Shown: piece by piece, positions 928-59,809 of the stretch
Numbering within the stretch: the stretch's first letter is position 1
Layout: each line of letters opens with the position of its first letter
Assembly (NCBI RefSeq): GCF_000831645.3
Contig: NZ_CP012559.1
Coordinates: forward strand, 1,798,001 to 1,862,000
Reading direction: 5' to 3'
Source: Companilactobacillus heilongjiangensis
Lineage (GTDB): Bacteria; Bacillota; Bacilli; Lactobacillales; Lactobacillaceae
DNA: 64,000 nt
Translations under genes and position numbers: made by a program
Notes under the pieces: model-generated
Databases searched by the model: none
Told to the model about the DNA's origin: nothing
Seen by the model: the letters and a program-made list of their open reading frames with translations, nothing else

Positions 928-1100
928 GCCGCCTCCGGGTGACAGTGATTGATTGCCGCTGTGGGACCGGTTCGAGCCAAAGTGCGGTCTCGAGCCTCGC
1001 TTTTGAGCCGAAACCCGCGTCTCAAAAACGTCCTGTGATGTAAGGGCTGAAGCCCTAACATCACTATCACTGCTGGCACCAATCACTGTCACCCGGAGGC
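928..1100 (-). repeat. Cloverleaf repeat, copy 1
   Basis: This is a copy of the window's dispersed element. Strand is given as plus when the copy ends in GGAGGCGGC on the top strand and minus when it starts with GCCGCCTCC. The outer arms GGGTGACAGTGATTG and CAATCACTGTCACCC are perfect complements. Inside are three hairpins; the first has stem GTGATGT pairing with ACATCAC plus AGGGCT pairing with AGCCCT when read on the minus strand. It lies just after the uppP terminator with its GCCGCC end facing uppP. Confidence 0.85.
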
Positions 1101-1310
1101 TATTGTATTTAAAGGCCCGGAGACTCCTTAATGTTTTAAGATCATAGTTGTACCTTGTAGTCTGGTTTTCGTTTATTTGGACTTGATAAATTAATTCAAG
1201 ATAGGTTAACCGAATATTTATATCAATATAAATTCAGAAACCTTAAAATATAATATTTTACCTAATCTGGATTACGTTATAACCAATTCCAATCAGTCCT
1301 TCAAAACACT

Positions 1311-1488
1311 AGCCGGAGGTCGTCAGGAATATAGTCATGTCATGGAGGTGGCGTTACGGCTTTAGCCGTTACACCACAGGGCGAGTTTTGAGATTCGCGC
1401 ATTATACGAAGCTCAAAATCGAGGTGCGAGACCTTGGCTCGCACCGGTCCTCATAGCATGAACTATATTCCTGACGACCGGAGGCGGC
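1311..1488 (+). repeat. Cloverleaf repeat, copy 2
   Basis: The outer arms GGTCGTCAGGAATATAGT and ACTATATTCCTGACGACC are perfect 18-base complements, unrelated in sequence to the arms of copy 1. Internal hairpins are GTGGCGTTACGGCT with AGCCGTTACACCAC, TTTTGAG with CTCAAAA, and GGTGCGAG with CTCGCACC. Together with copy 1 it brackets an AT-rich 210-bp spacer with no gene. The GGCGGC end faces cutC. Confidence 0.85.
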
Positions 1489-1566
1489 ATATATCAAACA
1501 TATATCATCAGACTTTTAGAAGAATATTTGTTAGAATATAACCACAACAATGAAGAGGGGTTGACT

Positions 1567-2214
1567 ATTATCTTTAAAGAAGTAGCTGTAGAAAACTTTA
1601 CTAAGATTCCCACCGCTGTTTTAAAGGGTGCTAATCGAATCGAATTAAATGATAATTTGGCTGTTGGAGGAACTACTCCTAGCCACGGTGTCTTGCAAGA
1701 AGCCACTAAATACCTTCAAGAAAAATCGGTTCCGCTTGTCGAAATGATCCGTCCTCGTGGTGGAGATTTCGTCTATAACGACTTGGAAATTAAAATGATG
1801 GAAGCTGACTTGTTTGAGGCTCAAAAGCTGGGTGTCGATGCGGTTGCCTTTGGTGCTTTGACTAAGGACGGCGACATTGACGAGGAAGCCATGGAACAAT
1901 TGATTGCTGCTTCTGCTGGTATGCAAATCGTTTTCCACATGGCTTTTGACGCTTTGGCTGAGGATAACAAGAAAAACGCTATCGACTGGTTGGTTGACCA
2001 CGATGTTGACCGTATTTTGACTCACGGTGGTCCGTTGACTACTCCTATTGATATGACTTTGGACAATATTAAAAAGTATATTGATTACGCTGATGGTCGG
2101 ATTCTTATCTTGCCTGGCGGTGGTGTTAACTTTGAGAATGTTGATAGCATTGCTGAAAAGCTTGGGGTTAAGGAATTGCATGGTACTAAGATTATTGATG
2201 GGGTTAATAATTAA
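1567..2214 (+). CDS. cutC: Copper homeostasis protein CutC family
   Basis: This is a CutC-family TIM-barrel protein, linked to copper homeostasis in other bacteria though its biochemical role is unsettled. Family features include FKEVAVEN at the N-terminus, an EMIRPRGGDF motif, DAVAFGALT, FHMAFDA, DRILTHGG and ILPGGGV near the end. About 215 residues is close to the usual length. The start is unusual: GAGAGGGG-like SD sequence at 1554-1560 is followed six bases later by ATT ATC TTT AAA GAA, giving the expected MIFKE start only if AUU is used. The conventional alternatives are TTG at 1561, which abuts the SD, or TTG at 1528, which lies upstream of it. The gene stands alone between repeat copy 2 and a strong terminator; copY-copB is 28 kb away. 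Confidence 0.88.
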   Translation: MIFKEVAVENFTKIPTAVLKGANRIELNDNLAVGGTTPSHGVLQEATKYLQEKSVPLVEMIRPRGGDFVYNDLEIKMMEADLFEAQKLGVDAVAFGALTKDGDIDEEAMEQLIAASAGMQIVFHMAFDALAEDNKKNAIDWLVDHDVDRILTHGGPLTTPIDMTLDNIKKYIDYADGRILILPGGGVNFENVDSIAEKLGVKELHGTKIIDGVNN

Positions 2215-2228
2215 CTCTTTGGTAAATT

Positions 2229-2294
2229 AAATAGGTTCGAATTCATTGGGATATTTTGACTATATTCCCGTTTTGAATTCGAACCTATTTTTTT
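2229..2294 (+). terminator. Long-stem terminator after cutC
   Basis: A 17-bp perfect stem (AAATAGGTTCGAATTCA with TGAATTCGAACCTATTT) is followed by TTTT. The loop can fold further (GGGATAT with ATATTCCC). It begins 15 bases after the cutC stop and could stop transcription from both sides. Confidence 0.85.
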
Positions 2295-2312
2295 GTATAT
2301 ATATTCAGTTGT

Positions 2313-2349
2313 GTTTTAGAGATTGCTGGGCATGCAGTGGCTCTAAAAC
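2313..2349. other. Inverted repeat GTTTTAGAG / CTCTAAAAC
   Basis: Nine-base perfect inverted repeat separated by 19 bases, directly upstream of the larger hairpin at 2356-2459. Part of a gene-free stretch between cutC and mgtE that is dense in secondary structure. Confidence 0.5.
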
Positions 2350-2355
2350 GAGTTC

Positions 2356-2459
2356 TGCAAGGGCAACTCCTTCCGCTTTGCATACTTTTAGCAATCACAC
2401 GCAAAACCGGCGTGTAATTGCTAAAAGTACGCAAATGCTCGGGAGCTGACCGCCCTTGC
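2356..2459. other. Long imperfect hairpin, about 104 nt
   Basis: Nested complementary segments fold the whole stretch: GCAAGGGC (2357-2364) with GCCCTTGC (2452-2459), TTGC with GCAA, and a core stem TACTTTTAGCAAT (2383-2395) with ATTGCTAAAAGTA (2417-2429), capped by ACACG and CGTGT. It is neither a normal terminator nor a copy of the cloverleaf repeat. No reading frame of interest lies in it. It may be a transcribed 3' UTR structure of mgtE or a degenerate small element. Confidence 0.5.
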
Positions 2460-2464
2460 TCCGC

Positions 2465-2500
2465 TCTCTCACTTAAACGAGTTCCGCAGGCCAATTTCTT
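2465..2500. repeat. Short repeat shared with 54.0 kb
   Basis: The string ACGAGTTCCGCAGGCCAATTTCTT and the adjacent GCTCCGCTCTCTCACTT recur in slightly changed form and in the reverse order at 54008-54062. A partial third match (ACGAGTTCTGCAAGG) lies at 2349-2363. Both main copies sit immediately downstream of the stop codon of a minus-strand gene. Confidence 0.45.
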
Positions 2501-2520
2501 GTGGCGTCAAGACGCCACAA
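2499..2520 (-). other. Perfect hairpin overlapping the mgtE stop codon
   Basis: TTGTGGCGTC and GACGCCACAA are perfect 10-base complements with a 2-base loop. On the minus strand the stem includes the last codons and stop of mgtE. There is no T-run after it, so it may protect the mRNA end or act on termination of translation; it is not a classical intrinsic terminator. Confidence 0.55.
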
Positions 2521-6245: not shown

Positions 6246-6328
6246 AATGACCTCGCTTTACTTACTTCTTTAAATATATCTTATATTCGATTTAGATTCA
6301 CTTTATTCTTACAAAGTTTTATATATAT

Positions 6329-6509
6329 GCCGCCTCCGGTAGCCAGAAAATGGGGCAGTCCGCTGTGAGGACCGGTTCGAGCCAAGGTCTCTCACCTCGA
6401 TTTGAAGCCTTACCACAGTTCGGTAAGGCTCCAAAGTCGTCCGTTGTGTAATGGCTAAAGCCATAACACAACCTTCACGGCGTACTCCCCATTTCTGGCT
6501 ACCTCCGGC
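6329..6509 (-). repeat. Cloverleaf repeat, copy 3
   Basis: Starts with GCCGCCTCCGG; arms GGTAGCCAGAAAATGGGG and CCCCATTTCTGGCTACC are complementary with one bulge. Internal stems include GTGTAATGGCT with AGCCATAACAC on the top strand. The GCCGCC end faces relQ. Arms and core are nearly identical to copy 6, so these two are recent relatives. Confidence 0.85.
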
Positions 6510-6689
6510 TAGGTTATTTTTGGATAATCTAATTACTAATTTTAGTTGATAGTCTATTGTAAATATTCACGTCAATTTCAGAGTATACGACAAATAGATA
6601 CGCATGGCTCTAGTCGATAACCTACTACAAATATTCCATATTCTAAAACAGTTTACATGCTTTTACACTCAACTAATAACGATTAATTA

Positions 6690-6850
6690 GTCGGAAGAGC
6701 TGGGAAATATTTGTGTGCCGTGGTTGTGGTATAAGGGCATGTTTGGAAACTTGACGAACTTTGTCAAGGCTTCAACCCGAGACTCGAGACCGAACTTTGG
6801 CTCGAGTCGTTCCGCACAGCTAGTGAATATTTTCCAGCTCTGTAGACGGA
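6690..6850 (+). repeat. Degenerate cloverleaf repeat, copy 4
   Basis: Arms AGAGCTGGGAAATATT and AATATTTTCCAGCTCT still pair and the second and third hairpins remain (TTTGGAAACTTGAC and GTCAAGGCTTCAA; CGAG-CTCG). The first hairpin and the GC-rich tips have decayed. It stands in tandem with copy 5. Its arm matches the repeat fragment at 43983-44014. Confidence 0.65.
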
Positions 6851-7040
6851 ATACTTAAAACACCGCACAAAATTAGTCACACCAATATTTTGGTAAGATC
6901 TATCCATATATTTGATTAAACAAAATGATTCAACTTTGCAAAATTGACTCATCATTTTAAAACTTATTATTAGTAAATTTCTCCGATATCCTTTACTATG
7001 CATATATCAACACAACAACTTAGCAATTAAAAAAACACTA

Positions 7041-7219
7041 GCTGGAGGTTATCAGTAATATAGTCAGCAGTGCAGGTGGTGTTAGAAAGGCGTTTTTCCT
7101 CTCTTACTCCACCGACGTATTTTGAGATTTGCGGTTTATGCAAACCTCAAAATCGAGGCGTGGGACCTTGGCCCACACCGGTCGCACAGCAGACTATATT
7201 GCTGATAATCTTCGGCGGC
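7041..7219 (+). repeat. Cloverleaf repeat, copy 5
   Basis: Arms GATTATCAGCAATATAGTC-type are complementary (left GGTTATCAGTAATATAGTC, right GACTATATTGCTGATAATC). The first hairpin is GTGGTGTTAGAAAGG with CCTCTCTTACTCCAC, different in sequence from other copies but still paired. The GGCGGC end faces spxH, 85 bases away. Confidence 0.82.
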
Positions 7220-7303
7220 AGCAACGTCATGAGTTTATAATTTTACCTTTTTAAAAATTGTTGGTAGAATGACTATGCAATAGAGAGATGGAGGGAAAAC
7301 GTA

Positions 7304-8857: not shown

Positions 8858-8907
8858 TTTTATCACCTCTGATAGAAATTACGCAAAAAATATATTTTTT
8901 GTTCACT

Positions 8908-9089
8908 GCCGCCTCCGGTAGCCAGAAAAATGGGCAGTCCGCTGTGAGGAACGGTTCGAGCCAAGGTCTCTCACCTCGATTTGAAGCCTTGCCATGGTTC
9001 GGCAAGTCTCCAAAGTCGTCCGTGGTGTAATTGCTAAAGCAATAACGCCACCTTCACTGCGTACTCCCCATTTTCTGGCTACCTCCGGC
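8908..9089 (-). repeat. Cloverleaf repeat, copy 6
   Basis: Near twin of copy 3 with arms GGTAGCCAGAAAAATGGG and CCCCATTTTCTGGCTACC. The middle hairpin is TTTGAAGCCTTGCC with GGCAAGTCTCCAAA. The GCCGCC end faces the coiA start. Confidence 0.85.
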
Positions 9090-9195
9090 TAATATATTTT
9101 CTGTTTCTATCAGAGGTATTTAAATATGTAGCCTATCTGGAGTAGAAAAAAATTTAATCTCTGCCAAATATTTGAAACTTAATTAAAACTCCTTA

Positions 9196-12133: not shown

Positions 12134-14617
12134 CTATAAACTATTTGTCAAAGTCCATTTAAGTGTGGTTGAATAGTGACCATTTTCCGCATATCGATCA
12201 TGATTCATATCCAAAAGAATTCCGTGGTCATCGTCCCATGATATTGTATTGGGGCCATTAGCGATATCACCTGAGTAAATTTTCGTATCGGCAGATGACA
12301 AAACATTTTCATTATTATATTTATCCTTAAAAACTAAAACATCGTTGAGTGTTTTAGTCTTATCCGTCTCGTCAGTCAACGGCGCATCCATTGATACATA
12401 TAAGTCAGACGGCACAGCATCGGTTGGATATGTGCTATTAGTAACATTTATCGCGAAGTCATTCTTACGTCGGACAAGGCCAGAGGCATTCGAAGTAGTC
12501 CCAAAATCAATGTCAGGAACGGTCATCTTCATATCGCCCTTTGTTTGTTGCTGCCAGACATAAGTCGTTACAGGATTACCAACAGTAGAAAACTTATCCA
12601 TAATATCCTGTGCGGAAACTAAATCACCTAATGGTTCATGATCAGTTCCACCATCGGCTGTATCGACCACTTGCCACTTGTCACTGATTGCTGAATAAGT
12701 TTTGTCGGTTGAATCGTCTTTAATGGCGGTACCTGGTACGGGCGTTGGAACAGAAGCCGTTTGCTCCAAAGCTGGACCATTTAAATTAGTCAAAACAGAT
12801 TTAGGACCTAATGTTAATTTCCATAGATTGGTATCATTTTTCAACATTGCCTGTACGTCGGTCGCATTAGTAGTATCAAAATTAGAGATATCAAGTGTCT
12901 CCAAATTAGACATGGCATCAAACATTGCATAAAATGTATCCACATTGGAAGTGTCCCAAGTTGAAACATCCAAGGTCTTAACACCCGTCCCCCAGAACAT
13001 TCCACGCATAGTCGTTGCACTTGAAACATCCCAATTGCTTACTGGTAAATTCTCAAAACTTGGGGACAGATAAAAGGTGTATGAAAAGTCAGTAACGTTT
13101 GAAACGTCCCATTTACCGACTGGAATATATTTCAAATTATTATCCTTAGAAAAAACATATGTGAGACTAGTAACTTTTGAAACATCCCAATCTGCAATAT
13201 TCAATTGACTGATATCACTGATATTGGAATTGTAAAATAAATTATTAATACGATTCACTGAGCTGGTATCAAAATTTCCTTTCACTTCCTGTAACTTACT
13301 CGTATTCCCAAACATATAATTTATATCGGTTACTTTACTAGTATTAAAATTGTTTAAATCAAGATTTACAAAGCCTGTACTTTGAAACATATAAGCCATA
13401 TTGGTAACTTCACTCGTATCAAATAAAGACAATCCTTTCAGATTGTTTTCATTTAACTTTGAGCACCCACTAAACATATTTTGCATGGTTTCAACATTAC
13501 CCGTATTCCAATTTGTTAAATCCAAAGATTCAAGTTTACTGCAGCCGGAAAACACGCCTAACATAGACACTACATTACTAGTATCCCAATTGCTTAAATA
13601 CGGTAAAGTTATTAAACTACTATCCATCTGAAACATACTACTGATATTTGTAAGATGTGTCATATCAATCGAGTCTATGCCAATAACTTCCGTTAATGAT
13701 TTACAACCGGAAAACATACTACCAGTATCTTCCAAACTATTTGTTTTCCAATTTGAAATATCAATACTCTTAATATTCGAATTCTGACTAAACATAAAAG
13801 GCATCTTCACAACTTTGGAAACATCCCAATTTCTAACCTGCGATAAGTCTTCCATTTGAACTCCAGAAAAAGCTGAACTCATTTCAATAACTTTGGACGT
13901 ATCCCAATTCTCTATTCCGGTTATATTCAACTTTTTATCACCAGAAAAAATTGAGACCATCCTTGTAACATTTGAAGTATCCCAATTTTCTAACCCTTGA
14001 ATTGACTGTAAGGAGCTATCACTAGAAAACAATGACTCGATATTAGTCGCATGTGAAATATTCCACGTCTCTAATCCTGTAAGGGAAGTCAAACTGGGAT
14101 CTAAATAGAACATGCTGGACAAAGTGCTTGCGTATTGAACATTTAGGTTCTTAACATCAATACTAGTAACATTCGGTAAGAAGCTAAATAGATATGACGA
14201 ATTATTATAGGCCAGTACTTTTTCTCCCACGTAAACACTAGTTATCTGGTTACGAAAATTGTACCAAGGCATATCAGGAATCGAATTATTTAATTGAACC
14301 TGACCCAATAATGCTGATTTGTCATCAGGTACACTTATACTCAACCTTCCACCTGCATCAATGACCCAATTACAACTGCCAAAAGTTCCACTAGCAATAT
14401 CAGTCGGATCGGCAGCAGTAGTGGCAGCCAAAGGCATAATTGTACTAGTAGAATTATTATCATCAGTCGCAATTTTATTTTGGCTAACTACATCTTGAAT
14501 ATCATTTGTATCTGCATGAACAACCTGCATTGAAAATAACGGCAATAGTGCACTACAAAGAAAGATAATCAATCTCAAAGTATACTTATGTTTATATATC
14601 AAATTCATCCTTGTCAT
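12134..14617 (-). CDS. Secreted BspA-type leucine-rich-repeat protein with WxL-like C-terminus
   Basis: A large exported surface protein of about 827 residues. After a basic N-terminus comes a signal peptide (LRLIIFLCSALLPLFSMQVVHA). Residues about 120-600 hold many copies of the BspA/DUF285 repeat, of the form WDTSNVTxMxxMFxxCxxL. The C-terminal part has VPDIDFGTTSNASG and ends LKWTLTNSL, matching the IDFG and final WxL motifs of WxL domains, which bind peptidoglycan non-covalently. No LPXTG signal is present. ATG at 14617 follows AAAGGCGG; the longer frame to 14701 has no such site. A role in adhesion or wall-associated complexes is usual for this class. It is a close paralogue of the next gene. 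Confidence 0.85.
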   Translation of the reverse strand: MTRMNLIYKHKYTLRLIIFLCSALLPLFSMQVVHADTNDIQDVVSQNKIATDDNNSTSTIMPLAATTAADPTDIASGTFGSCNWVIDAGGRLSISVPDDKSALLGQVQLNNSIPDMPWYNFRNQITSVYVGEKVLAYNNSSYLFSFLPNVTSIDVKNLNVQYASTLSSMFYLDPSLTSLTGLETWNISHATNIESLFSSDSSLQSIQGLENWDTSNVTRMVSIFSGDKKLNITGIENWDTSKVIEMSSAFSGVQMEDLSQVRNWDVSKVVKMPFMFSQNSNIKSIDISNWKTNSLEDTGSMFSGCKSLTEVIGIDSIDMTHLTNISSMFQMDSSLITLPYLSNWDTSNVVSMLGVFSGCSKLESLDLTNWNTGNVETMQNMFSGCSKLNENNLKGLSLFDTSEVTNMAYMFQSTGFVNLDLNNFNTSKVTDINYMFGNTSKLQEVKGNFDTSSVNRINNLFYNSNISDISQLNIADWDVSKVTSLTYVFSKDNNLKYIPVGKWDVSNVTDFSYTFYLSPSFENLPVSNWDVSSATTMRGMFWGTGVKTLDVSTWDTSNVDTFYAMFDAMSNLETLDISNFDTTNATDVQAMLKNDTNLWKLTLGPKSVLTNLNGPALEQTASVPTPVPGTAIKDDSTDKTYSAISDKWQVVDTADGGTDHEPLGDLVSAQDIMDKFSTVGNPVTTYVWQQQTKGDMKMTVPDIDFGTTSNASGLVRRKNDFAINVTNSTYPTDAVPSDLYVSMDAPLTDETDKTKTLNDVLVFKDKYNNENVLSSADTKIYSGDIANGPNTISWDDDHGILLDMNHDRYAENGHYSTTLKWTLTNSL

Positions 14618-14737
14618 GATATTATCCGCCTTTGATAATTTCTTAACTAAGTGAATTTTATCAATATATTCATAATGTAATTTTTCAATATGTATAAACA
14701 CATTTTTCTTAATATGAATACTGTTATAACGGGCTTT

Positions 14738-14774
14738 AGATAATACTCACCGTGAAAAAATCTGTGTATTATCT
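14738..14774. promoter_or_regulatory. Inverted repeat upstream of the first BspA/WxL gene
   Basis: AGATAATAC and GTATTATCT are perfect 9-base complements 19 bases apart. The surrounding sequence (AATATGAAT, then TTTAGATAATACTCA) is conserved at the same place upstream of the paralogue (17474-17502). It is a candidate shared operator or regulatory stem. Confidence 0.45.
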
Positions 14775-14818
14775 CGTAAAATCTGATGAAATTTGGTCGA
14801 AAAATTGGTAAAGAAAAA

Positions 14819-14842
14819 CCACTATACGTGATGTATAGTAGC
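14819..14842. terminator. Terminator of the second BspA/WxL gene
   Basis: ACTATAC pairs with GTATAGT around GTGAT, with T-rich tracts on both sides (minus strand GGTTTTTC). It is 23 bases past the stop at 14865. Confidence 0.65.
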
Positions 14843-14864
14843 TTTATTTTTTGTTAATAACATA

Positions 14865-17342
14865 TTAAATACTGTTAGTTAGAGTCCATTTAAGCGTGGT
14901 TGAATAATGACCATTTTCCGCGTATCGATCATGATTCATATTCAAAAGAATTCCGTGGTCGTCATCCCATGATATTGTATTGGAGCCATTAGCGATATCA
15001 CCCGAGTAAATCTTAGTATCCTCAGATGATAAGATACTTTCGTTATTAGATTTATCTTTAAAGACCAAAACATCATTAAGCGTTTTAGTCTTATCTGTTT
15101 CATCAGTCAAAGGAGCATCCATCGAAACCGACAAATCAGATGGTACGGCATCGGTTGGATAGCTTTCATTATCAATTGATATTGCAAAATCACTCTTACG
15201 ATGAACAATCCCTGCAGCATTGGAAGTAGTTCCAAAATCAATATCAGGAACCGTCATCTTCATATCAATTTTTGCCTGTTGTTGCCACACGTAAGTTTCC
15301 GTCTTTCCACCGGGATTAGCGTATAATTCCAGCAATTGATCCTGAGAATATAAATCTCCATTTGGTTCATGATCAGTCCCTGTTCCTACTGCTTGCCAAT
15401 ACGACCCAACCGCCTTATACGAACCGTCAGGATCAATTGGATCATTGATTATCGAACCCTTATCATGCGTTGTCAAACCTGTACCCAAAGGAATAACTGA
15501 ATTTGGTCCTAATTTTATTTTCCATAGATCAGTAGTATTGGCAAATGCTGAGGTCATTGTAGCATTAGATATATCAAAACCTGACAAATCTAATGAAGTT
15601 ATCTTGTTATCATTAAGAAACATATAATACATGGATGATACAGGTACGGCTGGGGTCCAGTTAGACATATCAGCACTAATAAGTTCCGGATCATTACCAA
15701 ACATCTCAAAAAGATTTAATTTTCCTACAATACTTTTAATTGACCACTTAGCTGTTGGGGCAGTAACTATATTTTTACAATCACTGAACATATATTGAAA
15801 AATCTGTCCTGAACTAACATTCCAATTTTTCAAAAAATCATAAGTCTCAAAATTTGTTCCTTTAAATGTTCCGTTAAAACTTTCTATATTTTTAGTATCC
15901 CAGTTTTCTATGTTAAAGTTTGAGAAATCTGAAACATTTGAATTCATAAATACATTTGTTAATTCAGTTAACCCGCTAATATTAAAATTGCCTTTTAATT
16001 GCTGCAATTTTTTTGTATTAGAAAACATATTATTCATATTTGTCAAACTGTCAGTATTGAAATGATTTAAATCTAAAATCACAAAACCTGTATTACTGAA
16101 CATTCCTGACATATTAGTTACTTTTGATGTATCAATATTTGAAATACCTAGTAAGGTTTTCTCATCCAAATTTAAATCTCCTCCAAACATACTCGACATG
16201 TTTGTAACATTGGAGGTGTCCCATCTGGTTAAATCTAGAGACTGTAAATTACTGCACCCATTAAAAAGAGAAGTCATATTAGCAACATTACTAACATCCC
16301 AGTTTTCTACCCCTGATAATGATGATAATAATGAATCCTGACTAAACATTATACTAATATCCGTTACTTTACTCATATTCATAGATCCTAAACCTTTTAT
16401 ATCATTCAAAGATTTACATCCACTAAACATATTTGAGGTATTGGCCAAACTGTCGGTATTCCAATGTGATACATCAATATTGGTCATTGCCGTATCCCTT
16501 GAAAACATCGCCATCATATCAACAACACTAGAAACATCCCAATTTGCTAGCTGTGTAAAGTCTGATATTCCAGAAGAATTAAACATTGAGGCCATACTTG
16601 TAACATTTGACGTATTCCAGTTTTCGAAATCACTAAAATTAAGCATTTCATCATTTAAAAACATGGAACCCATATTCGTAATATTTGATGTATCCCATTT
16701 TTCAATACCAGAAATAGATGATAATTGCTCATCATAAGCAAAAATATTATTAATAGTTATTGCATTTGATATATTCCAATTTCCCAATCCGCTTATAACT
16801 TTTAGATTATCATCATGTGCAAAAAAATTATCCAATCCTAAAACATACTTAACATCTAAATTTCCAACATCAATCTCCTCCACATTAGGCATATTTGAAA
16901 ACAAACCTGCGGAAGAATTATTAGCAACTATGCCCTTTCCAACGTAAACACTTGTTATATCATCAACAAAATTGTCCCAAGGAAGTCCTATGGGTTTTCC
17001 GCTCGGTAGAGTTTCAAATGGCTGTGTAATTCCTGATAGAGCACCATCATGAGTATAAATACTAAGTTTTCCACTCACATCAATATTCCAATCACAATTC
17101 CCCCAAGTCCCACTAGCAATATCAGTCGGATCGGCGGCATTAGTGGCAGCCAAAGGCATAATTGTACTAGTAGAATTATTATCATCAGTTACAATTTTGT
17201 TTTGACTAACCAAATCTTGAATATCATCTGCATGAGCGACTTGCATTGAAAATAACGGCGAAATGGCACTACAAAGAAAGACAATCAGCCTTAAAGCGTA
17301 TTGCATCGTTTTCTGTTTATGTTTCAACTTTGCTCCTGCCAT
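14865..17342 (-). CDS. Secreted BspA-type leucine-rich-repeat protein with WxL-like C-terminus, second copy
   Basis: Paralogue of the gene at 12134, about 825 residues. The signal peptide is YALRLIVFLCSAISPLFSMQVAHA and the mature start (DDIQDLVSQNKIV) is nearly the same. DUF285 repeats fill about residues 120-590, more diverged from the sister protein than the two ends are. The C-terminus again has VPDIDFGTTSNAAG and LKWTLTNSI. ATG at 17342 is preceded by AAGGGTGG at eight bases; GTG at 17354 overlaps that site. Conserved ends with a diverging middle suggest the repeats change faster than the export and wall-binding parts. It lies between mecA and spx. Confidence 0.85.
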   Translation of the reverse strand: MAGAKLKHKQKTMQYALRLIVFLCSAISPLFSMQVAHADDIQDLVSQNKIVTDDNNSTSTIMPLAATNAADPTDIASGTWGNCDWNIDVSGKLSIYTHDGALSGITQPFETLPSGKPIGLPWDNFVDDITSVYVGKGIVANNSSAGLFSNMPNVEEIDVGNLDVKYVLGLDNFFAHDDNLKVISGLGNWNISNAITINNIFAYDEQLSSISGIEKWDTSNITNMGSMFLNDEMLNFSDFENWNTSNVTSMASMFNSSGISDFTQLANWDVSSVVDMMAMFSRDTAMTNIDVSHWNTDSLANTSNMFSGCKSLNDIKGLGSMNMSKVTDISIMFSQDSLLSSLSGVENWDVSNVANMTSLFNGCSNLQSLDLTRWDTSNVTNMSSMFGGDLNLDEKTLLGISNIDTSKVTNMSGMFSNTGFVILDLNHFNTDSLTNMNNMFSNTKKLQQLKGNFNISGLTELTNVFMNSNVSDFSNFNIENWDTKNIESFNGTFKGTNFETYDFLKNWNVSSGQIFQYMFSDCKNIVTAPTAKWSIKSIVGKLNLFEMFGNDPELISADMSNWTPAVPVSSMYYMFLNDNKITSLDLSGFDISNATMTSAFANTTDLWKIKLGPNSVIPLGTGLTTHDKGSIINDPIDPDGSYKAVGSYWQAVGTGTDHEPNGDLYSQDQLLELYANPGGKTETYVWQQQAKIDMKMTVPDIDFGTTSNAAGIVHRKSDFAISIDNESYPTDAVPSDLSVSMDAPLTDETDKTKTLNDVLVFKDKSNNESILSSEDTKIYSGDIANGSNTISWDDDHGILLNMNHDRYAENGHYSTTLKWTLTNSI

Positions 17343-17473
17343 GATTATATCCACCCTTGTTAATTGATAACTTTTTAACTAAGTGAATCTTATCAAAATA
17401 TTCATATTATTTAATTTCATTTTATATAAAGCACTTTCTTCTAATATGAATCCCGGTATCATAGGGTTTAGAT

Positions 17474-19539: not shown

Positions 19540-19554
19540 GTTGTATTGACATCT

Positions 19555-19735
19555 GCCGCCTCCGATTGCCAGAGTTTTTCGCCTGCTGTGGGGCCGGTTC
19601 GAGCCATAGTACGGTCTCGAACCTCGATTTTGAACTTCGCCATGGACCTTTGCGAATTTCAAAATCGTCCCCTAAAATAAGGACTTCGTCCTTATTTTAG
19701 TTTCACTGCGGGCGAAAACTCTGGCAATCGGAGGC
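19555..19735 (-). repeat. Cloverleaf repeat, copy 7
   Basis: Arms CGATTGCCAGAGTTTTTCGCC-type: left and right strands are complementary over about 20 bases with one extra T. The first hairpin is a perfect 13-bp stem CTAAAATAAGGAC with GTCCTTATTTTAG, quite unlike other copies in sequence, which shows the fold is conserved rather than the bases. Confidence 0.85.
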
Positions 19736-19989
19736 TATTTTATTTAAAAATTTAGTTGGTTGAAACCAGTAACTAATCTTCTAGAGTATTGCGCTACTTG
19801 TTTTAGAATTTGTTTGATATTCCCTTTTACCTAATATATTGATACTGATTTTAGTATTTTCTATCCTTTAATCCAGTCATATTACATTACGTAAAATAAT
19901 AATAAAGACAAAAGCGTTGGATCAATTCGATTATAATTTAAAAACACTGCGGAAATAAAACAGACATTCAAACTAACCGAGTAACTAGA

Positions 19990-20171
19990 GCCGGAGGGTG
20001 ACGGGAAAAATGCAGTCTGCCATGAAGGTGGCGTTAGAGCTTTAGCTCTTACACCACGGACGACTTTGGAGACTTGCCGAACTATGGCAAGGCTTCAAAT
20101 CGAGGCCCGAGACATTGGCTCGGACCGGTCCACATGGCAGAACTGCATTTTTCCCGTCACCCGCAGGCGGC
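19990..20171 (+). repeat. Cloverleaf repeat, copy 8
   Basis: Outer arms GGTGACGGGAAAAATGCAGT and ACTGCATTTTTCCCGTCACC are perfect complements. First hairpin TTAGAGCT with AGCTCTTA; middle hairpin TTTGGAGACTTGCC with GGCAAGGCTTCAAA. It forms a facing pair with copy 7 around a 254-bp AT-rich spacer. The GGCGGC end is 20 bases from the bceB stop. Confidence 0.85.
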
Positions 20172-20190
20172 ATATTTCAATAAATCCAAA

Positions 20191-22942: not shown

Positions 22943-22963
22943 AAATAATTACCTTCTTGGGTA

Positions 22964-23066
22964 GCCGCCGGAGGCAGTGAGCGAGTGACGAAGTCTGCCA
23001 TGGGACCGGTTCGAGCCAAAGTACGGTCTTGAGCCTCGCTGTCTTCATCACTCACTACCCCCGGCT
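22964..23066 (-). repeat. Cloverleaf repeat, copy 9 (minimal, two hairpins deleted)
   Basis: Only 103 bp. Arms GGCAGTGAGCGAGTGACGAAG and CTTCATCACTCACTACCCC still pair imperfectly and the GGTTCGAG hairpin is kept, but the first and second internal hairpins are missing. It shows a natural internal deletion that leaves the outer stem. Confidence 0.72.
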
Positions 23067-23263
23067 AGGATATTTTTAGTTTACATTTAATTTTTTGATA
23101 TTGAGTATTGTTATTAAAATCAATACATTAAATATTTAAACGTGAGAGTATTCTGAAACTTTTCAAATTATTATGGAAATGAAGTTATATCCATAAACCA
23201 AATCAAAGAATCAGCTATAATAACAACTATATTACTAACAACAATCAATCCAAAAATGCATGA

Positions 23264-23449
23264 GCTGGAGGTTGTCGGGGAAAATGCAGTCTGCCATGGA
23301 GGTGGCGTTATGGCTTTAGCCATTACACCACAGGGCGAGTTTTGAAATTCGCAAACTGTGCGAAGTTCAAAATCGAGGTTCGAGACCGCACTTCGGCTCG
23401 GACCGGTCCTCATGGCAGAACTGCATTTTCCCCGACAGCCGGAAGCGGC
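23264..23449 (+). repeat. Cloverleaf repeat, copy 10
   Basis: Arms GTTGTCGGGGAAAATGCAGT and ACTGCATTTTCCCCGACAGC pair with one mismatch, and the stem continues through CTGCCATG with CATGGCAG. First hairpin TTATGGCT with AGCCATTA; middle TTTTGAAATTCGC with GCGAAGTTCAAAA-type pairing. The GCGGC end faces the response regulator gene. Confidence 0.85.
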
Positions 23450-23531
23450 AGCGGAAGAATCTACATTTTTACAATGATTATTGTTATCATACTATATAGT
23501 GTCTTTATTCTAGCACGGAGGGAATTTTATA

Positions 23532-25327: not shown

Positions 25328-25385
25328 GAGTTCACAAATTATTAACTTTAAATCCCCAACCAACAAAAAAACAACGAATACATTA

Positions 25386-25572
25386 GTCGGAGGGAGACAG
25401 GGATTTGGAAGACTGCTGTGAAAGTGGCGTTACGGCTTTAGCCGTTACACCACCGGGCGAGTTTGGAGACTTACCGAACTGTGGTAAGGCTTCAAAAACC
25501 GAGGTTCGAGACCGCACTTCGGCTCGGACCGGTCCGCATAGCGGCTTCCAAATCCCTGTCTCCCGGAGGCGG
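25386..25572 (+). repeat. Cloverleaf repeat, copy 11
   Basis: Arms GGGAGACAGGGATTTGGAA and TTCCAAATCCCTGTCTCCC are perfect 19-base complements. First hairpin TTACGGCT with AGCCGTTA; middle TTTGGAGACTTACC with GGTAAGGCTTCAAA. The GGCGG end stops five bases from the tetR stop codon. Confidence 0.85.
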
Positions 25573-25576
25573 AAAC

Positions 25577-28593: not shown

Positions 28594-28619
28594 AATATAT
28601 AAGATAAAACCAATAACCT

Positions 28620-28808
28620 AGCTGGAGGTCGTCTGGGAAAATACATTTTGCCATGAAGGTGGCGTTATGGCTTTAGCCATTACACCACGGGACGAGTTTG
28701 GATACTTGCAGAACTGTGGCAAGGATTCAAATCGAGGTGCGAGACCGCTCTTTGGCTCGGACCGGTCCCCATGGCAGAACTGTATTTTCCCAGACAACCG
28801 GAAGCGGC
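28620..28808 (+). repeat. Cloverleaf repeat, copy 12
   Basis: Arms GGTCGTCTGGGAAAATACA and TGTATTTTCCCAGACAACC pair with a G-T type mismatch. First hairpin TTATGGCT with AGCCATTA. The GCGGC end stops five bases from the stop codon of the next gene. Confidence 0.85.
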
Positions 28809-28812
28809 CCAT

Positions 28813-31878: not shown

Positions 31879-31917
31879 AACCTTAAAAGTAAAGCCTTAT
31901 TACTTATTTTTGTTTTT

Positions 31918-32097
31918 CCGCCAACGGGAGAGATAGATGCCATCGCCCTGTGACCGGTGCGAGCCAAGGTCTCGCGCCTCGATTTTGAGCTTTGCAGAAA
32001 CCGCAAATCTCAAAATACGTCAGTGGAGTAAGAGCTGAAGTTCTTACTCCACTTGCACTGCTGGTAGACTATCTCTCTCCCGCTGGCTCTTGTTTTT
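31918..32097 (-). repeat. Cloverleaf repeat, copy 13
   Basis: Tip is CCGCCAACGGG instead of GCCGCCTCCGG and the other tip CCCGCTGGC changed accordingly. Arms CGGGAGAGATAG and CTATCTCTCTCCCG pair. First hairpin GTGGAGTAAGAACT with AGCTCTTACTCCAC. The tip faces copY. Confidence 0.8.
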
Positions 32098-32451: not shown

Positions 32452-32490
32452 ATTAATTTCAATTTATACATTCAAATATCAAGATAACCT

Positions 32491-32668
32491 AGCCGGAGGT
32501 CGACAGTGATGATGAAGACAGCTGTGCAAGTGGAGTTAGGGATTTATCCCTTACTCCACCGACGTATTTTGAAATTCGAGTGGTTTTCTCGAAGTTCAAA
32601 ATCGAGGTGTGAGACTTTGGCTCACACCGGTTAGCAGGCTTACATCATCACTGTCGACCGTAGGCGGC
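32491..32668 (+). repeat. Cloverleaf repeat, copy 14
   Basis: Arms GGTCGACAGTGATGATGAAG and CTTACATCATCACTGTCGACC pair. First hairpin GTGGAGTTAGGGAT with ATCCCTTACTCCAC, a perfectly compensated version of other copies. GGCGGC ends five bases from the nrdJ stop codon. Confidence 0.85.
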
Positions 32669-32672
32669 ACAG

Positions 32673-44014: not shown

Positions 44015-45901
44015 GATCGAGTAGGAATTGCTTTTTATCGTCCTCGCACACCACCGTACGTACGGTTCCGTATACGGCGGTTCATTAATTTAAGCATTCT
44101 GAATAAACTGGAGTCTCTTGGACATATTTATTAGTCCAAGTGATTCCAGTTTTTCATTTGTCAAAGTGTACAACAACGTCTTGCTATGTGCTGTTCGCCA
44201 ATATCCTTTGCGGGTGTTGTCGAAAGTTCTAGCTTGGGTTCTTGTCATTCCTAGTTTTATCAGATTTTTAAATCTGGTTTTTATTTTCTTCCACGACTTC
44301 CATATGTATTGTCTGATTCTAGAACGCAGCCATTCATCAAGTGATTTGATAAATGCTTTCATTTTTCCAATTCCATAGTAGTTTATCCAACCAACCATTT
44401 TCTGGTTAATTTCCTTGAAGAGTTCATCGAGACTTCTGCCTCGATTTCTCTTCGTTATTTTCTTGAGTGATTGTTTAACTCTCTTTTTGGATTGCTGGCA
44501 AGGGCGCACGTAAGTGCCCTTGGCCGATACGCCAAGCGAAAATCCCAAGAACTTCAATCTTAAAGGAGACCCAACTTTGGTCTTCTTCTGATTTACCGTT
44601 ACTTTTAAGTCTTTCTCAAGAAATTTAGAAATATTACCTAGAACTCGATATCCTGCACGTTTGCTTTTGACATATATATTACAATCATCGGCATATCGAA
44701 CGAATTTGTGCCCGCGAGCGGACAACAACTTATCAAGCTCATTTAAATAGATATTGGCAAGCAATGGAGAGAGGTTACCACCTTGCGGTGTACCCTTTTC
44801 AGATTTTTGGAACAATTGTCCGTCCATTACTCCACTAGTTAGGAACTTACGAATCATTTTCAATAGCCATTCATCATCGATGTATTGTCTGATGAACTTC
44901 AATAGTAGGTCATGATTGACAGTATCGAAATACGCTTTTAAATCAAGATCTATCACAACGTGATAGCCTTGATTATAAAATTCTGTGACACGTTTTATGG
45001 CATCGTGAGCACTTCGATTAGGTCTAAAACCAAAGCTGTTATCTGAAAAGGCTCTTTCAAAGACAGGCGTCATCGCTTGCGCAATTGCCTGTTGTATCAG
45101 ACGGTCAACGACCGTTGGTACTCCCAATTTACGTTTAGTCCCATCTGGTTTTGGTATTTCTACTCTTCTGACTGGACTTGGCCTATATGTAAGGTCAGCC
45201 ACTGATTCAACCAATTCAGACTTATTCTCTCTGATGTAATCAAATAATTCATAGACAGTCATACCATCTATTCCAGCAGCACCCTTATTTCCATAGACCT
45301 TTTGGTAAGCTAGGTTGAGATTTTCTCTATTTAATACTAGTTCTTTGAATGAGATGCCACTCTTCGTCGTACTTTCACCAGAGGCGGTACTACGCGCCTC
45401 TGATTGTCTTTGGTCTTCCAGACCTATCCTCTTCAGATGGTCAGCTTTTTGTTCTGCTTTCTGCGATTTTCGCACCGCTTCCACCCCCAATATCAACAAG
45501 AGTTATTAATGTTCGGTCCTTCGCCGCAAGCGACTACTATGACCTCGGCTGACTTCTGTACCATTCAGCTAGACATCACTGCCTAGTTTGCTTGTAGGAT
45601 ACATTCCGTTTCCTTGCCAAACATATGACACAGACCTCCCCGGGTAAGAACGCTAACTTTCATACCATGTAGCTGTTGGCTTTACTGCATCTACTTTCGA
45701 GTAGTATTGGACTTTGGATTGTTGTGCATCCTTATCCAGTAGACACAGCCTTATAGCCACTTCTTGTAAGCTCAGTATTTTGCTTTAGACTTCCTTCATA
45801 TTCTGCCTCACGGCAGACACCCTTGTCCTCAGCTAGTGATTCCGACTACTACGGCTCACAGTGGACTTTCACCACCAAGTCAGCGCCCATGCCGGGCGCA
45901 C
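44015..45901 (-). mobile_element. Group II intron
   Basis: A self-splicing retroelement of about 1.89 kb on the minus strand. The 5' end reads GTGCGCCCGG at 45901, a GUGYG-type start. The 3' part after the reverse transcriptase stop has the domain V stem CGCCGTATACGG ... CCGTACGTACGGTGG and ends with CTACTCGAT at 44015, an AY end. Between is a 400-base structured 5' region and the ORF. It is inserted right after a hairpin with a T-run (45902-45940), the target type of bacterial class C introns; class is not proven. It probably moves by retrohoming. Confidence 0.88.
44090..45475 (-). CDS. ltrA: Group II intron reverse transcriptase/maturase
   Basis: Intron-encoded protein of about 461 residues that helps the intron fold, splice and reverse transcribe. 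RT motifs: VYGNKGAAGIDGMTV (RT0/1), VRRVEIPKPDGTKRKLGVPTV, FERAFSDNSFGFRPNRSAHDA, VIDLDLKAYFDTVNH, GTPQGGNLSPLLANI and the catalytic RYADDCNIY. A maturase (X) domain follows (about 330-420, with WINYYGIGKM). No HNH endonuclease domain is visible. GTG at 45475 is preceded by GGGGGTGG; other starts at 45484 (GTG) and 45499 are possible. The frame is intact, so the element may be active. Confidence 0.92.
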   Translation of the reverse strand: MRKSQKAEQKADHLKRIGLEDQRQSEARSTASGESTTKSGISFKELVLNRENLNLAYQKVYGNKGAAGIDGMTVYELFDYIRENKSELVESVADLTYRPSPVRRVEIPKPDGTKRKLGVPTVVDRLIQQAIAQAMTPVFERAFSDNSFGFRPNRSAHDAIKRVTEFYNQGYHVVIDLDLKAYFDTVNHDLLLKFIRQYIDDEWLLKMIRKFLTSGVMDGQLFQKSEKGTPQGGNLSPLLANIYLNELDKLLSARGHKFVRYADDCNIYVKSKRAGYRVLGNISKFLEKDLKVTVNQKKTKVGSPLRLKFLGFSLGVSAKGTYVRPCQQSKKRVKQSLKKITKRNRGRSLDELFKEINQKMVGWINYYGIGKMKAFIKSLDEWLRSRIRQYIWKSWKKIKTRFKNLIKLGMTRTQARTFDNTRKGYWRTAHSKTLLYTLTNEKLESLGLINMSKRLQFIQNA

Positions 45902-50536: not shown

Positions 50537-51313
50537 CTAAGACCCAGTAGCTGAATAATGGGTCGCGCTATATTGCCAAAATTTTAAAATAATTAACAAA
50601 AATATAATGGATAGGAATGGGACAAAAACAAGCTCTGAGTCTTTTGATTTACCAAATACATATAGAAATGGATAATAATTGATTAAAGCAAACGGAAAGA
50701 TATAAGTTAAAATAGTTTTCACTCCCTTATTCATAACATCCACAGGATAATGAAGACAGTCTGACCCACTACCCATCAGTAATATTGAAATATTGATTGC
50801 ATTGACGGTAAAGAATGTTAAAGATCCGAATAGAATATATAAACTTAAAAATAGAGTAATTCCACCAAATGGAATCATAAACAGTGCAACTATTCTAAAA
50901 AAGTCCCATTGAATAGAGCTTTTGCGGATTGCCAAGACTAATAATATAATTGATGTAATTAACCGACCTATCCGAGAAATTTCCACACCGCTCCCAAATA
51001 TTTGCACTAGTAATGGTTGTGGTCGTATTAGATAAATATCCAAGTTTCCTTGTCTAATCAAATCTGACAAGTTATTAATCCCTTTGCCAACAATTTCCGC
51101 ACAAGTGTAGGAAATATTTACTAGTGCATATACTAATAATTCTTGTGAAAAACTGTAACCTCTGATGGATCCAAGGGATTTAAATAGTAAAAAGAAACCT
51201 AAAATAAAAGTCATTTGTGCAATAAATTGTCCCACGATGAGTAAATAAGTAGAAATATTATATTCCAATTGGGATTTAATACTTTTTCTGACTAACATTA
51301 AATAAACACTCAA
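50537..51313 (-). CDS. ABC-2 type permease of the folate-linked transporter, second
   Basis: A 258-residue permease with six likely helices. QGNLDIYLIRPQPLLVQIFG is the marker of the DUF990-like ABC-2 permeases that occur as unequal pairs with a CcmA-like ATPase. It sits between the partner permease and folB, with gaps of 3 and 9 bases. The presence of this transporter in a ZTP-riboswitch folate operon suggests transport of a folate, pterin, pABA or a related compound; direction is unknown, though ABC-2 systems are usually exporters. Confidence 0.85.
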   Translation of the reverse strand: MSVYLMLVRKSIKSQLEYNISTYLLIVGQFIAQMTFILGFFLLFKSLGSIRGYSFSQELLVYALVNISYTCAEIVGKGINNLSDLIRQGNLDIYLIRPQPLLVQIFGSGVEISRIGRLITSIILLVLAIRKSSIQWDFFRIVALFMIPFGGITLFLSLYILFGSLTFFTVNAINISILLMGSGSDCLHYPVDVMNKGVKTILTYIFPFALINYYPFLYVFGKSKDSELVFVPFLSIIFLLIILKFWQYSATHYSATGS

Positions 51314-53241: not shown

Positions 53242-53335
53242 GGGCACCTCTAAAAAGAGATGCCCAGGCGGTCGACTATTAAGAACTATATTCCCTTGTA
53301 GTTTATTCTACATCCGCCAGTTATATAGTTCTGTT
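53242..53335 (-). ncRNA. ZTP riboswitch (pfl motif) with terminator
   Basis: Reading the minus strand, AGAACTATA (53324-53332) pairs with TATAGTTCT (53282-53290) as P1. The inner loop holds ACTGGCGGA, and TGTAG pairs with CTACA as P2. GGCGG in the loop (53314-53318) is complementary to CCGCC (53267-53271), the conserved pseudoknot, followed by the hallmark CCGCCTGGGCA. The GGGCA also begins a terminator stem GGGCATCTCT with AGAGGTGCCC (53242-53265). ZTP builds up when 10-formyl-tetrahydrofolate is short, and binding should free the operon from termination. Confidence 0.9.
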
Positions 53336-53337
53336 AA

Positions 53338-54062: not shown

Positions 54063-54065
54063 TCT

Positions 54066-57123: not shown

Positions 57124-57163
57124 TTCATTCAAATAGCTACAAAATAGGTATAAATGCATATTA

Positions 57164-58257: not shown

Positions 58258-58395
58258 AAATCCCCTCTCAAGAAAATTTCTTATTCTAGGTTAACATAAA
58301 TTATGAAATCACTGCCATGATTGGGGTCAAGATTGGTTACTTTGACTAGATGTTTTCGTGCTTCTTTAAACGTTGAAAATTTGTTATCTATTTTA

Positions 58396-58424
58396 TTGCT
58401 GTTACCAAACTAACCTGATACAAT
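58396..58424 (+). promoter_or_regulatory. Promoter of sRNA unit 1
   Basis: TTGCTG and TACAAT with 17 bases between. The same boxes and spacing occur in units 2 (58654-58682), 3 (58907-58935, TTGCCG) and 4 (59397-59425). Confidence 0.75.
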
Positions 58425-58430
58425 ATCTTT

Positions 58431-58555
58431 GTATTAAAAAAGACGACAGACCACTGCAGAAGGCCTGCCGTCACAACTCCACGAAAGTGGTAGCAAGTTA
58501 ATCAACCAAAAGGATAAGCCAATCGACCGCTAAGTCTAGGATGGCTTATTTTTTT
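58431..58555 (+). ncRNA. Small RNA, array unit 1
   Basis: Predicted transcript of about 125 nt from the promoter at 58396-58424 to a terminator whose stem is ATAAGCCA with TGGCTTAT followed by seven T. Inside are a hairpin CCAC-GAAA-GTGG, an upstream stem GACG with CGTC around the ACAGACC/GGCCTG pair, and the conserved CAAGTTAATCAACCA. The opposite-strand frame that encodes the peptide in unit 3 is broken here (TGG to TAG) and lacks its hydrophobic start. Confidence 0.7.
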
Positions 58556-58688
58556 AGCGTCTTTTTGAATCTTTTCTATACCCTGACTAAGTGTGCGAGA
58601 TCAGACAGCAGTGCCATTAACCACAATTTACTTCAAATTTCACTTCTATTTTATTGCTGTTCTAAAACTAACCTGATACAATATCTTT

Positions 58689-58813
58689 GTATTAAAAAAG
58701 ACGACAGACCCATACAGAGGGCCTGTCGCCACAGCTCCACGAAAGTGGTAGCAAGTTAGTCAACCAAAAAAGTAAGCCAACGACCTGCTAAGTCTATGAT
58801 GGCTTATTTTTTT
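58689..58813 (+). ncRNA. Small RNA, array unit 2
   Basis: Same architecture as unit 1 and of equal length; upstream stem CGACAG with CTGTCG is perfect here where unit 1 has another pairing. CAAGTTAGTCAACCA is conserved, terminator GTAAGCCA with TGGCTTAT plus seven T. The opposite-strand peptide frame keeps the basic C-terminal part but not the hydrophobic part. Confidence 0.7.
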
Positions 58814-58941
58814 AGCGTCTTTTTGAATCTTTTCCATGCCCTGACTAAGTGCATAAGATCAGACAATAATCTCGATTGGTTAGTATAAAATAACCTTTCT
58901 ATTTTATTGCCGTTACCAGACTAACCTGATACAATATCTTT

Positions 58942-59066
58942 GTATTAAAAAAGACGACAGACCCATACAGGGGGCCTGCCGCCACAACTCCACGAAAGTG
59001 GTAGCAAGTTAGTCAACTAAAAAATAAGCCAACGACCCTGGTAAGTCTAAGATGGCTTATTTTTTT
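58942..59066 (+). ncRNA. Small RNA, array unit 3 (faces the peptide gene)
   Basis: Promoter TTGCCG-17-TACAAT at 58907-58935. Hairpin CCAC-GAAA-GTGG, then CAAGTTAGTCAACTA (59005-59019) and a terminator AATAAGCCA (59023-59031) with TGGCTTATT (59053-59061) flanked by A-run and T-run, so it works in both directions. It overlaps the end of the convergent peptide gene at 59057-59191. Candidate antitoxin RNA. Confidence 0.72.
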
Positions 59067-59191
59067 AGCGTCTTTTTAAATCTTTTCCATGCCCTGACTA
59101 AGTGCGTGAGATCAGACAGCAGTCCATTGGACTGTTTAACGACTGTTCTCAGAACACCTAGCAAAACGATGAGCGCTATCAAATAATACAA
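59057..59191 (-). CDS. Small hydrophobic/basic peptide, candidate type I toxin
   Basis: A 44-residue peptide: hydrophobic MYYLIALIVLLGVLRTVV, then SNGLLSDLTHLVRAW and a basic end KRFKKTLKK. A single membrane helix with charged tail is the typical form of type I toxins such as Fst. It starts on TTG with GAAAGGA seven bases before; a stop lies just upstream in frame. The stop codon is inside the bidirectional terminator shared with sRNA unit 3. Its own promoter would be TTGCTA (59313-59318), 17 bases, CATACT (59290-59295). Confidence 0.5.
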   Translation of the reverse strand: MYYLIALIVLLGVLRTVVKQSNGLLSDLTHLVRAWKRFKKTLKK

Positions 59192-59275
59192 CAGCTAATC
59201 CTTTCTTCCATAAGTTATTAACTATGTTTCCATAGCTTTCACCTCGCTTTACTTGGAATTAGCTACCACCTTCGA

Positions 59276-59318
59276 CAAGTTGCAACCACAGTATGCTGGT
59301 TATTACATTTCCTAGCAA
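59276..59318 (-). promoter_or_regulatory. Promoter and 5' leader repeat of the peptide gene
   Basis: On the minus strand TTGCTA and CATACT are 17 bases apart. The predicted transcript starts with TGGTTGCAACTTG (59276-59288), complementary to the sRNA segment CAAGTTAGTCAACCA apart from a 2-base insertion. Direct repeats placed this way let the two RNAs pair at the 5' end, as in the par/Fst locus. Confidence 0.5.
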
Positions 59319-59431
59319 CAAAATATGGCTGATATATTTCATTATTATGCAGTACTTTTAATCATAAATTTACTGCCAAAATATGTTCCTATTTTATTGC
59401 TGTTCTCAAACTCACCTGATACAATATCTTT

Positions 59432-59555
59432 GTATTAAAAGGACGACAGACCCATACAGAGGGCCTGCCGCCACAACTCCACGAAAGTGGTAGCAAGTTA
59501 GTCAACCAAAAAGTAAGCCAATTGACCGGGTAAGTCTAAGATGGCTTATTTTTTT
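59432..59555 (+). ncRNA. Small RNA, array unit 4
   Basis: Promoter TTGCTG-17-TACAAT at 59397-59425; hairpin CCAC-GAAA-GTGG; CAAGTTAGTCAACCA at 59494-59508; terminator GTAAGCCA with TGGCTTAT and seven T. The facing strand has no intact peptide frame. Confidence 0.7.
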
Positions 59556-59623
59556 GCGTCTTTTTAAGTATCTTCCCATAATAAATACCTAAACTTTAAA
59601 ATAAAACAGTCCATCACAAAAAC

Positions 59624-59809
59624 TAGCCTCCGGCTGACGGGGAAAAACAGTCTGCAATGAAGGTGGCGTTATGGCTTTAGCCATTACACCACGGGACGAG
59701 TTTTGAAATTCGCGTACTTTGCGAAGTTCAAAATCGAGGTTCGAGACCGCTCTCTGGCTCGGACCGGTCCCCATAGCAGAACTGTTTTTCCCCGGCAACC
59801 GGAGGCGGC
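59624..59809 (+). repeat. Cloverleaf repeat, copy 15
   Basis: Arms CTGACGGGGAAAAACAGT and ACTGTTTTTCCCCGGCAACC pair imperfectly; first hairpin TTATGGCT with AGCCATTA, middle TTTTGAAATTCGC with GCGAAGTTCAAAA. The left tip reads GCCTCCGG rather than the usual CCGGAGG. GGCGGC faces the MMPL gene. It is 27 kb from the nearest full copy. Confidence 0.82.

Follow-up and report, generated by a model that had tools for sequence, protein, structure and literature searches.

Two questions are raised by the cloverleaf repeats scattered over a 64-kb stretch of the Companilactobacillus heilongjiangensis genome (contig NZ_CP012559.1, positions 1,798,001 to 1,862,000; this whole 64,000-nucleotide stretch is called the window below): what maintains their fold, and how do such RNA-like repeats spread in bacteria? 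The repeat has been anonymous, perhaps makes up 3–4% of a lactobacillus chromosome, and is linked to a transcribed streptococcal RNA. Its hundreds of natural variants allow both questions to be tested, and they also bear on why copies settle with one fixed end towards genes. We lean towards the reading that this is a non-autonomous mobile family whose unit is a transcribed, folded RNA, much like a bacterial short interspersed element (SINE).

Fold and covariation of the repeat

The window holds 15 copies of 105–191 bp, nine on the plus strand and six on the minus strand, and 13 of them are full-length (174–191 bp). TAGCC...GGCGGCA is taken as the canonical orientation; in this orientation a copy mostly starts with TAGCCGGAGG or TAGCCTCCGG and ends with CCGGAGGCGGCA. 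One strand folds into an outer stem, P0, of up to ~35 pairs, which encloses a hairpin, P1 (type GTGGCGTTACGGC TTTA GCCGTTACACCAC), and a short stem around two further hairpins, P2 and P3. This fourth helix, GGAC/GTCC, is an addition to the plan described in a first-pass annotation made from the letters of the window. The 15 copies of that annotation are all present, with starts within 1–2 bases of those it gave, and the outer arms and hairpins it quoted are real and pair within each copy. By eye, P2 and P3 share the motif GAGAC...GGCTC, with an A opposite G or bulged; C.A and T.T mismatches are kept in P1 in most of 60 printed copies, and the copies bring the hairpin types together in many combinations. 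In 104 of 150 copies, G.A and A.G oppositions lie close to the base of the stem, and a G.G separates them in 83 of the 150.

To follow the fold beyond the window, we used a covariance model, R1, built from 14 window copies, two of them trimmed by 3–4 bases at one end. R1 recovers all 15 window copies, 14 of which are its own seeds, and gives 13 further, weaker echoes on the opposite strand that reach up to 63 bits. When 150 copies are aligned by fitting to R1, 92.7% of the alignment cells pair. Both sides have changed in 56 of the 73 pairs, compared with 43.4 in shuffles and at most 35 with slid partners. The covariation score is 0.448, against 0.158 in shuffled alignments (0 of 500 reach 0.448) and ≤0.066 with slid partners. 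The first-pass annotation had proposed that selection acts on the fold and had named a covariance model of the window copies as the check; the covariation above shuffles in 150 copies supports its proposal.

Which strand folds

A strand-blind DNA mechanism predicts equal numbers of G.T and A.C pairs, and an excess of G.T is observed instead. Over all pairs in the 150 copies, G.T outnumbers A.C by 612 to 129 in the alignment fitted to the model. The excess is also seen in 52 clear pairs, which are Watson-Crick in ≥93% of copies (74 versus 30, p 2e-5), and in 15 outer-stem pairs (40:10, p 2e-5), counts that treat copies as independent and ignore their relatedness. Its direction is the same for copies whose right-end gene reads towards them (29:14, p 0.03) and for those whose right-end gene reads away (42:15, p 5e-4). 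The excess therefore marks the canonical strand as the folded one, which counts against a double-stranded cruciform. Thus, of the earlier suggestion that the fold acts either as an RNA or as a DNA cruciform, the fold is supported and the cruciform is disfavored.

Copies in the window and in related species

The copies in the window, each an R1 match, and one element that carries a copy are as follows; G002, G005, G006, G010 and G021 are relatives that align at ~70–90% identity, with G006 taken as C. nantensis and G010 as C. huachuanensis.

927..1102, minus strand: cloverleaf copy, head-to-head with 1310–1489
1310..1489, plus strand: cloverleaf copy, head-to-head with 927–1102
6328..6511, minus strand: cloverleaf copy, head-to-head with 6688–6851
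6688..6851, plus strand: cloverleaf copy of 164 bp, diverged and without P1, recent subfamily M
approx. 6600..6870, plus strand: miniature inverted-repeat transposable element (MITE) carrying the M copy 6688–6851, degenerate terminal inverted repeat (TIR) ACGCATGG..., ends judged by eye
7039..7220, plus strand: cloverleaf copy
8907..9091, minus strand: cloverleaf copy, no counterpart at the same place in G006
19554..19737, minus strand: cloverleaf copy 14 nt past a stop codon, no counterpart in G002 or G006
19988..20172, plus strand: cloverleaf copy, its place also occupied by an element in G002 and G006
22963..23067, minus strand: cloverleaf copy of 105 bp with an internal deletion, site without counterpart in G010, G005 and G021
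23262..23450, plus strand: cloverleaf copy, same place empty in G010, G005 and G021
25384..25574, plus strand: cloverleaf copy, absent in G006
28619..28809, plus strand: cloverleaf copy
31916..32089, minus strand: cloverleaf copy, matched in position by elements of G002 and G006 that differ from each other by compensated changes
32490..32669, plus strand: cloverleaf copy whose right end is 3 nt away from the facing gene's stop codon, no counterpart in G002 or G006
59624..59810, plus strand: cloverleaf copy

Many window copies have no counterpart in the relatives, so that sites vary among species of one genus. The intergenic flanks in the relatives are too diverged to fix the exact ends of the element. 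Where G002 and G006 share a site, paired changes can be read by eye. Namely, at 33707/17115 the two have GGGCAC/GTGCCC versus GGGTGC/GCACCC and TTCACC/GGTGAA versus TTAACC/GGTTAA, and at 42484/25708 they have GGAACA/TGTTCC versus GGAGCA/TGCTCC, all compensated. At 50914/37780 nearly the whole outer stem has changed while P1–P3 are alike, and three other shared places (30565, 34703 and 39071) look like different insertions or replacements.

Copy number and placement in the genome

R1 has at least 150 matches in the C. heilongjiangensis genome. Placement was studied in a set of 177 copies, 162 from twenty 20-kb stretches chosen for density and 15 from the window; the set omits a weak match (L084 5437–5621, 35.8 bits) and includes the window copy 22963–23067, which lies below the cut-off. 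Fourteen further stretches (280 kb), placed between the dense ones regardless of matches, hold 40 copies. Since these unbiased stretches together with the window give 0.16 copies per kb, the genome contains roughly 450–550 copies, or 3–4% of its 2.79 Mb.

None of the 177 copies overlaps a predicted gene by >20 nt, with genes called by our own codon-usage script. Neighboring copies lie <600 bp apart in 55 of 61 cases when they are arranged head-to-head (-,+), and in 3/24, 3/22 and 3/49 cases in the (+,+), (-,-) and (+,-) arrangements. The unbiased stretches, whose placement counts omit 3 of the 40 copies (two cut by the stretch end and one not carried over), give 8/10 for (-,+) and 0/6, 0/2 and 0/7 for the others. 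The two ends also differ in what they face. A gene read towards the copy has its stop codon ≤15 nt from the right end in 31 of 80 cases and ≤60 nt from it in 51 of 80, as opposed to 0/98 and 2/98 for the left end; in the unbiased set, the ≤15-nt counts are 4/18 (right) and 0/17 (left). For genes that read away from the right end, the start codon is ≤131 nt distant in 63 of 91 cases. The left flank has a consensus of about AAATAMMY before TAG, A-rich and alike in both placement classes. Because the sense strand is typically rich in T downstream of genes and rich in A upstream, a preference for A-rich targets at the left flank may produce the orientation of the copies.

The head-to-head pairs suggested a composite mobile unit of two inverted arms, which we rejected: in 49 pairs the likeness between the two arms does not exceed that of random arms (mean score 64.5 versus 70.1, highest 94.5 versus 177), and 35 of the 55 spacers have no partner among the others at E 0.01. 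The paired copies are probably separate arrivals, since the two members of a pair do not resemble each other.

Subfamily M and target duplications

Subfamily M, which includes the most alike copies, sits in an element with the TIR ACGCATGGTGCTAGTT; the MITE at 6600–6870 has more complete relatives. A 101-bp MITE without a cloverleaf (X element, L130:17737–17837) has 16-bp TIRs and a 9-bp duplication, TAGGTTATT. Since M copies sit in a TIR element whose cloverleaf-less relative shows this duplication, an ordinary MITE seems to have picked up the cloverleaf and carried it along. The subfamily was probably founded when a cloverleaf inserted in a relative of the 101-bp MITE. No transposase was seen in the TIR element in two stretches with listed open reading frames. 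A 4-bp target duplication for the family as a whole was considered and dropped, as the first signal (17 versus 4.3) was gone after removing 14 M copies. Accordingly, the constant target duplication that, together with TIRs, defines a classical MITE is not found in non-M copies.

Homologs in streptococci and other genera

R1 matches 30 of 36 Companilactobacillus genomes, some with a single weak match, and 33 of 36 when more candidates are scored, in keeping with the genus-level spread that the first-pass annotation had named as support for its claim. Across the order, with 6 candidates scored per genome, at least 38 of 395 genomes and at least 11 of 80 sampled genera have matches. Some other Companilactobacillus carry a diverged two-hairpin form without P3 (L054, L056, L058–L061, L063 and L065). 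Weak R1 matches (39 bits) in a further family of the order mark an element with a 30-odd-bp outer stem and P1/P3-like hairpins (L186 and L191).

The family is not limited to lactobacilli: homologs occur in a genus (g5) that we take to be Streptococcus, in part from its RF02616 match, and the core of one homolog is contained in a described streptococcal RNA, RF02616 (SSRC8). In this genus R1 finds 11 genomes with one match each, and the 11 sequences have the same fold plan with little variation (2 of 55 pairs changed on both sides). The match at L209 is flanked by frames that we recognize as IF2 (infB) and RbfA; its right end lies 8 nt past the infB stop, and its canonical strand is antisense to the operon. 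A second model, R2, built from ten of the 11 sequences, matches 131 of 147 genomes of the genus, some weakly and many with several copies. A strict infB-end pattern is present in 24 of the 30 best loci and a frame-dependent pattern in 22. Several loci supply 40 distinct sequences, 39 of them streptococcal and one of a different genus; both sides have changed in 33 of their 51 pairs, and the covariation score is 0.456 versus 0.152 shuffled. The streptococcal G.T:A.C count is 82:14 overall, mainly from fixed pairs.

Are these elements homologous, or merely alike in shape? R1 scores of 54–55 bits at L209–L211 prove little alone, because wrong-strand matches in the window score up to 63 bits, above the streptococcal ones, so that like topology by itself can score. 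R2 recovers 11 of the 15 copies in the window, each on the canonical strand and at 53.6 bits at best. R3, a sequence-only profile of the infB-side streptococcal copy, has 13 matches at E ≤0.1 (best E 7e-6) in 160 kb of DNA from Companilactobacillus and other sources, all 13 on cloverleaf copies and on the canonical strand; it also finds 10 of 10 streptococcal loci outside infB. Since both models match the canonical strand of window copies, we take the streptococcal and window elements as homologs on the strength of their sequences.

Known RNAs and repeats

No Rfam family reaches its gathering score in the window copies, and one copy searched at E ≤10 yields nothing meaningful, which agrees with the earlier remark that no named family has this plan. 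In eight homolog loci, no Rfam family other than RF02616 reaches its gathering score. The RF02616 (SSRC8_2) matches lie on the same strand as those of R2, with model positions 138–242 matching the P2–P3 core of the streptococcal homologs. The gathering cut-off of 72 is reached by no window copy and by one of 12 streptococcal loci; in a scan of four streptococcal loci against this family, scores of 86.1 and 76.9 reach it, and 54.9 and 53.4 do not. Unlike the cloverleaf, RF02616 is described as one small RNA (sRNA) with a 281-position model rather than as a dispersed family, and its structure holds P2 and P3 without P0 and P1.

The dispersed ~155-bp repeat bcr1 of the Bacillus cereus group also has a conserved RNA fold; we compare it by description only and know of no strand-specific covariation or gene-end rule for it. 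BOX, RUP and SPRITE of Streptococcus pneumoniae are short repeats between genes whose RNA is predicted to fold, some of them transcribed (PMC3049150). BOX and RUP are reported to have TIRs and target duplications, neither of which was found for the cloverleaf outside subfamily M, and BOX is modular; by description, they are set apart.

SSRC8 is an sRNA of Streptococcus pyogenes with a Northern signal and ends mapped by circular rapid amplification of cDNA ends (PMC3675131). In Table 4 of that source, its homologs in other streptococci align within nucleotides 142–250, the part that matches the streptococcal cloverleaf homologs. Table 1 of PMC3542284 gives a 49-nt array signal from S. pyogenes on the plus strand between rbfA and infB. 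The link between the repeat and a transcribed streptococcal RNA suggests a larger dispersed family of which SSRC8-type sRNAs are members. Literature searches, whose coverage leaves out most subscription papers, returned no description of the cloverleaf family.

Competing explanations

If the family is a SINE-like mobile RNA, the RNA of the canonical strand, folded as a cloverleaf, would be recognized by an enzyme acting in trans, so that the element spreads; the same strand as single-stranded DNA would be a less likely carrier. SINEs, which have their origin in small RNAs, offer a parallel. A host function would then be the reason why some copies, among them the streptococcal one behind infB, were retained. 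In the window, two matches to group II intron domains (Rfam; 45516–45817) lie beside a 469-amino-acid frame (44090–45499) that may be the protein of the intron, together a candidate source of reverse transcriptase. A broader version, which we regard as tentative and clearly less probable, sees an order-wide counterpart of SINEs: a structured RNA, single-copy beside genes such as infB, would repeatedly have escaped to mass amplification in lactobacilli through its folded RNA and without target duplication, its stem arms diversifying fast while remaining complementary.

Several observations weigh against a mobile RNA. Transcription is known for streptococcal relatives only, from the work of others. 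The array signal between rbfA and infB would be antisense to the operon by the "c" suffix of the gene tag in the table cited above, and the element there is putative. The G.T:A.C ratio is not significant in 33 core pairs (28:17, p 0.14) or in clear streptococcal pairs (21:14, p 0.31), and it is just 17:10 in the 42 copies ≤60 nt from a stop codon. In 200 non-M copies, no target duplication was found (best 12 versus 3.1 expected, k=4, among 918 length/offset combinations). No autonomous copy spanned by the outer stem occurs in 1.34 Mb, where 244 outer-stem pairs fall at 160–199 bp and the 8 beyond 260 bp look by eye like cross-matches between copies. No partner enzyme tied to the element or its ends was found, as the first-pass annotation had already remarked of transposases. 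An empty site in relatives reflects loss as readily as lack of insertion, and the strong streptococcal conservation is as compatible with a host function as with mobility.

The main rival, which we consider unlikely, is single-strand DNA transposition, in which the canonical strand would be the folded substrate of an HUH (Y1) transposase or a similar recombinase and insert 3' of an A-rich target without duplication. REP/RAYT and IS200/IS605-type repeats are folded, are moved in trans, make no target duplication and use a short target. The strand asymmetry of the cloverleaf, its left-flank consensus of about AAATAMMY before TAG and the failure to find a duplication would fit such a derivative. 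In contrast to these systems, no Y1 partner with matching ends was found in the genome: it has two Y1 genes, both of which read like IS200 TnpA, with ends that by eye are unlike those of the element. Moreover, no Y1 match occurs in G002 (one contig), G006, G009 or G016, relatives that are rich in the element, and the streptococcal relatives are transcribed (PMC3675131, PMC3542284).

Slightly less likely still, the copies could be cis-acting mRNA elements, kept to end, process or protect transcripts at gene ends, with a mobile phase long past. The orientation of right ends towards gene ends (51/80 versus 2/98 within 60 nt of a stop) and the conserved place behind infB fit this idea, as does the finding that 35 of 55 spacers between paired copies match no other spacer (E 0.01) while the stems stay paired. 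Yet sites differ between species of one genus, and the G.T excess falls on the same strand whether the neighboring mRNA carries that strand or its complement. Some spacers also still hold, by eye, a terminator-like hairpin beyond the copy, on which ground a terminator role of the copies was discarded. Finally, template switching or gene conversion could copy one arm onto the other (quasi-palindrome correction) without selection on the fold, as the wholesale change of a near-perfectly paired outer stem at one site (G002 50914 versus G006 37780) might suggest, but arm copying should give equal G.T and A.C counts rather than the 40:10 of the outer stem, and we hold this to be very improbable.

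Two other origins were considered and set aside. For a tRNA or tmRNA origin, ARAGORN finds no such gene in the window. For carriage by plasmids or phages, one copy was searched and has no match in either collection, from which records near the genome may be missing.

Other features of the window

Adjoining the last cloverleaf copy, 58377–59607 contains 231-nt direct repeats in four copies, three of them spaced ~255. At 12134–17354, two long frames containing 48-nt repeat units (repeat families D3 and D4) probably encode repeat-rich surface proteins. A ZMP/ZTP riboswitch (Rfam) lies on the minus strand at 53255–53334.

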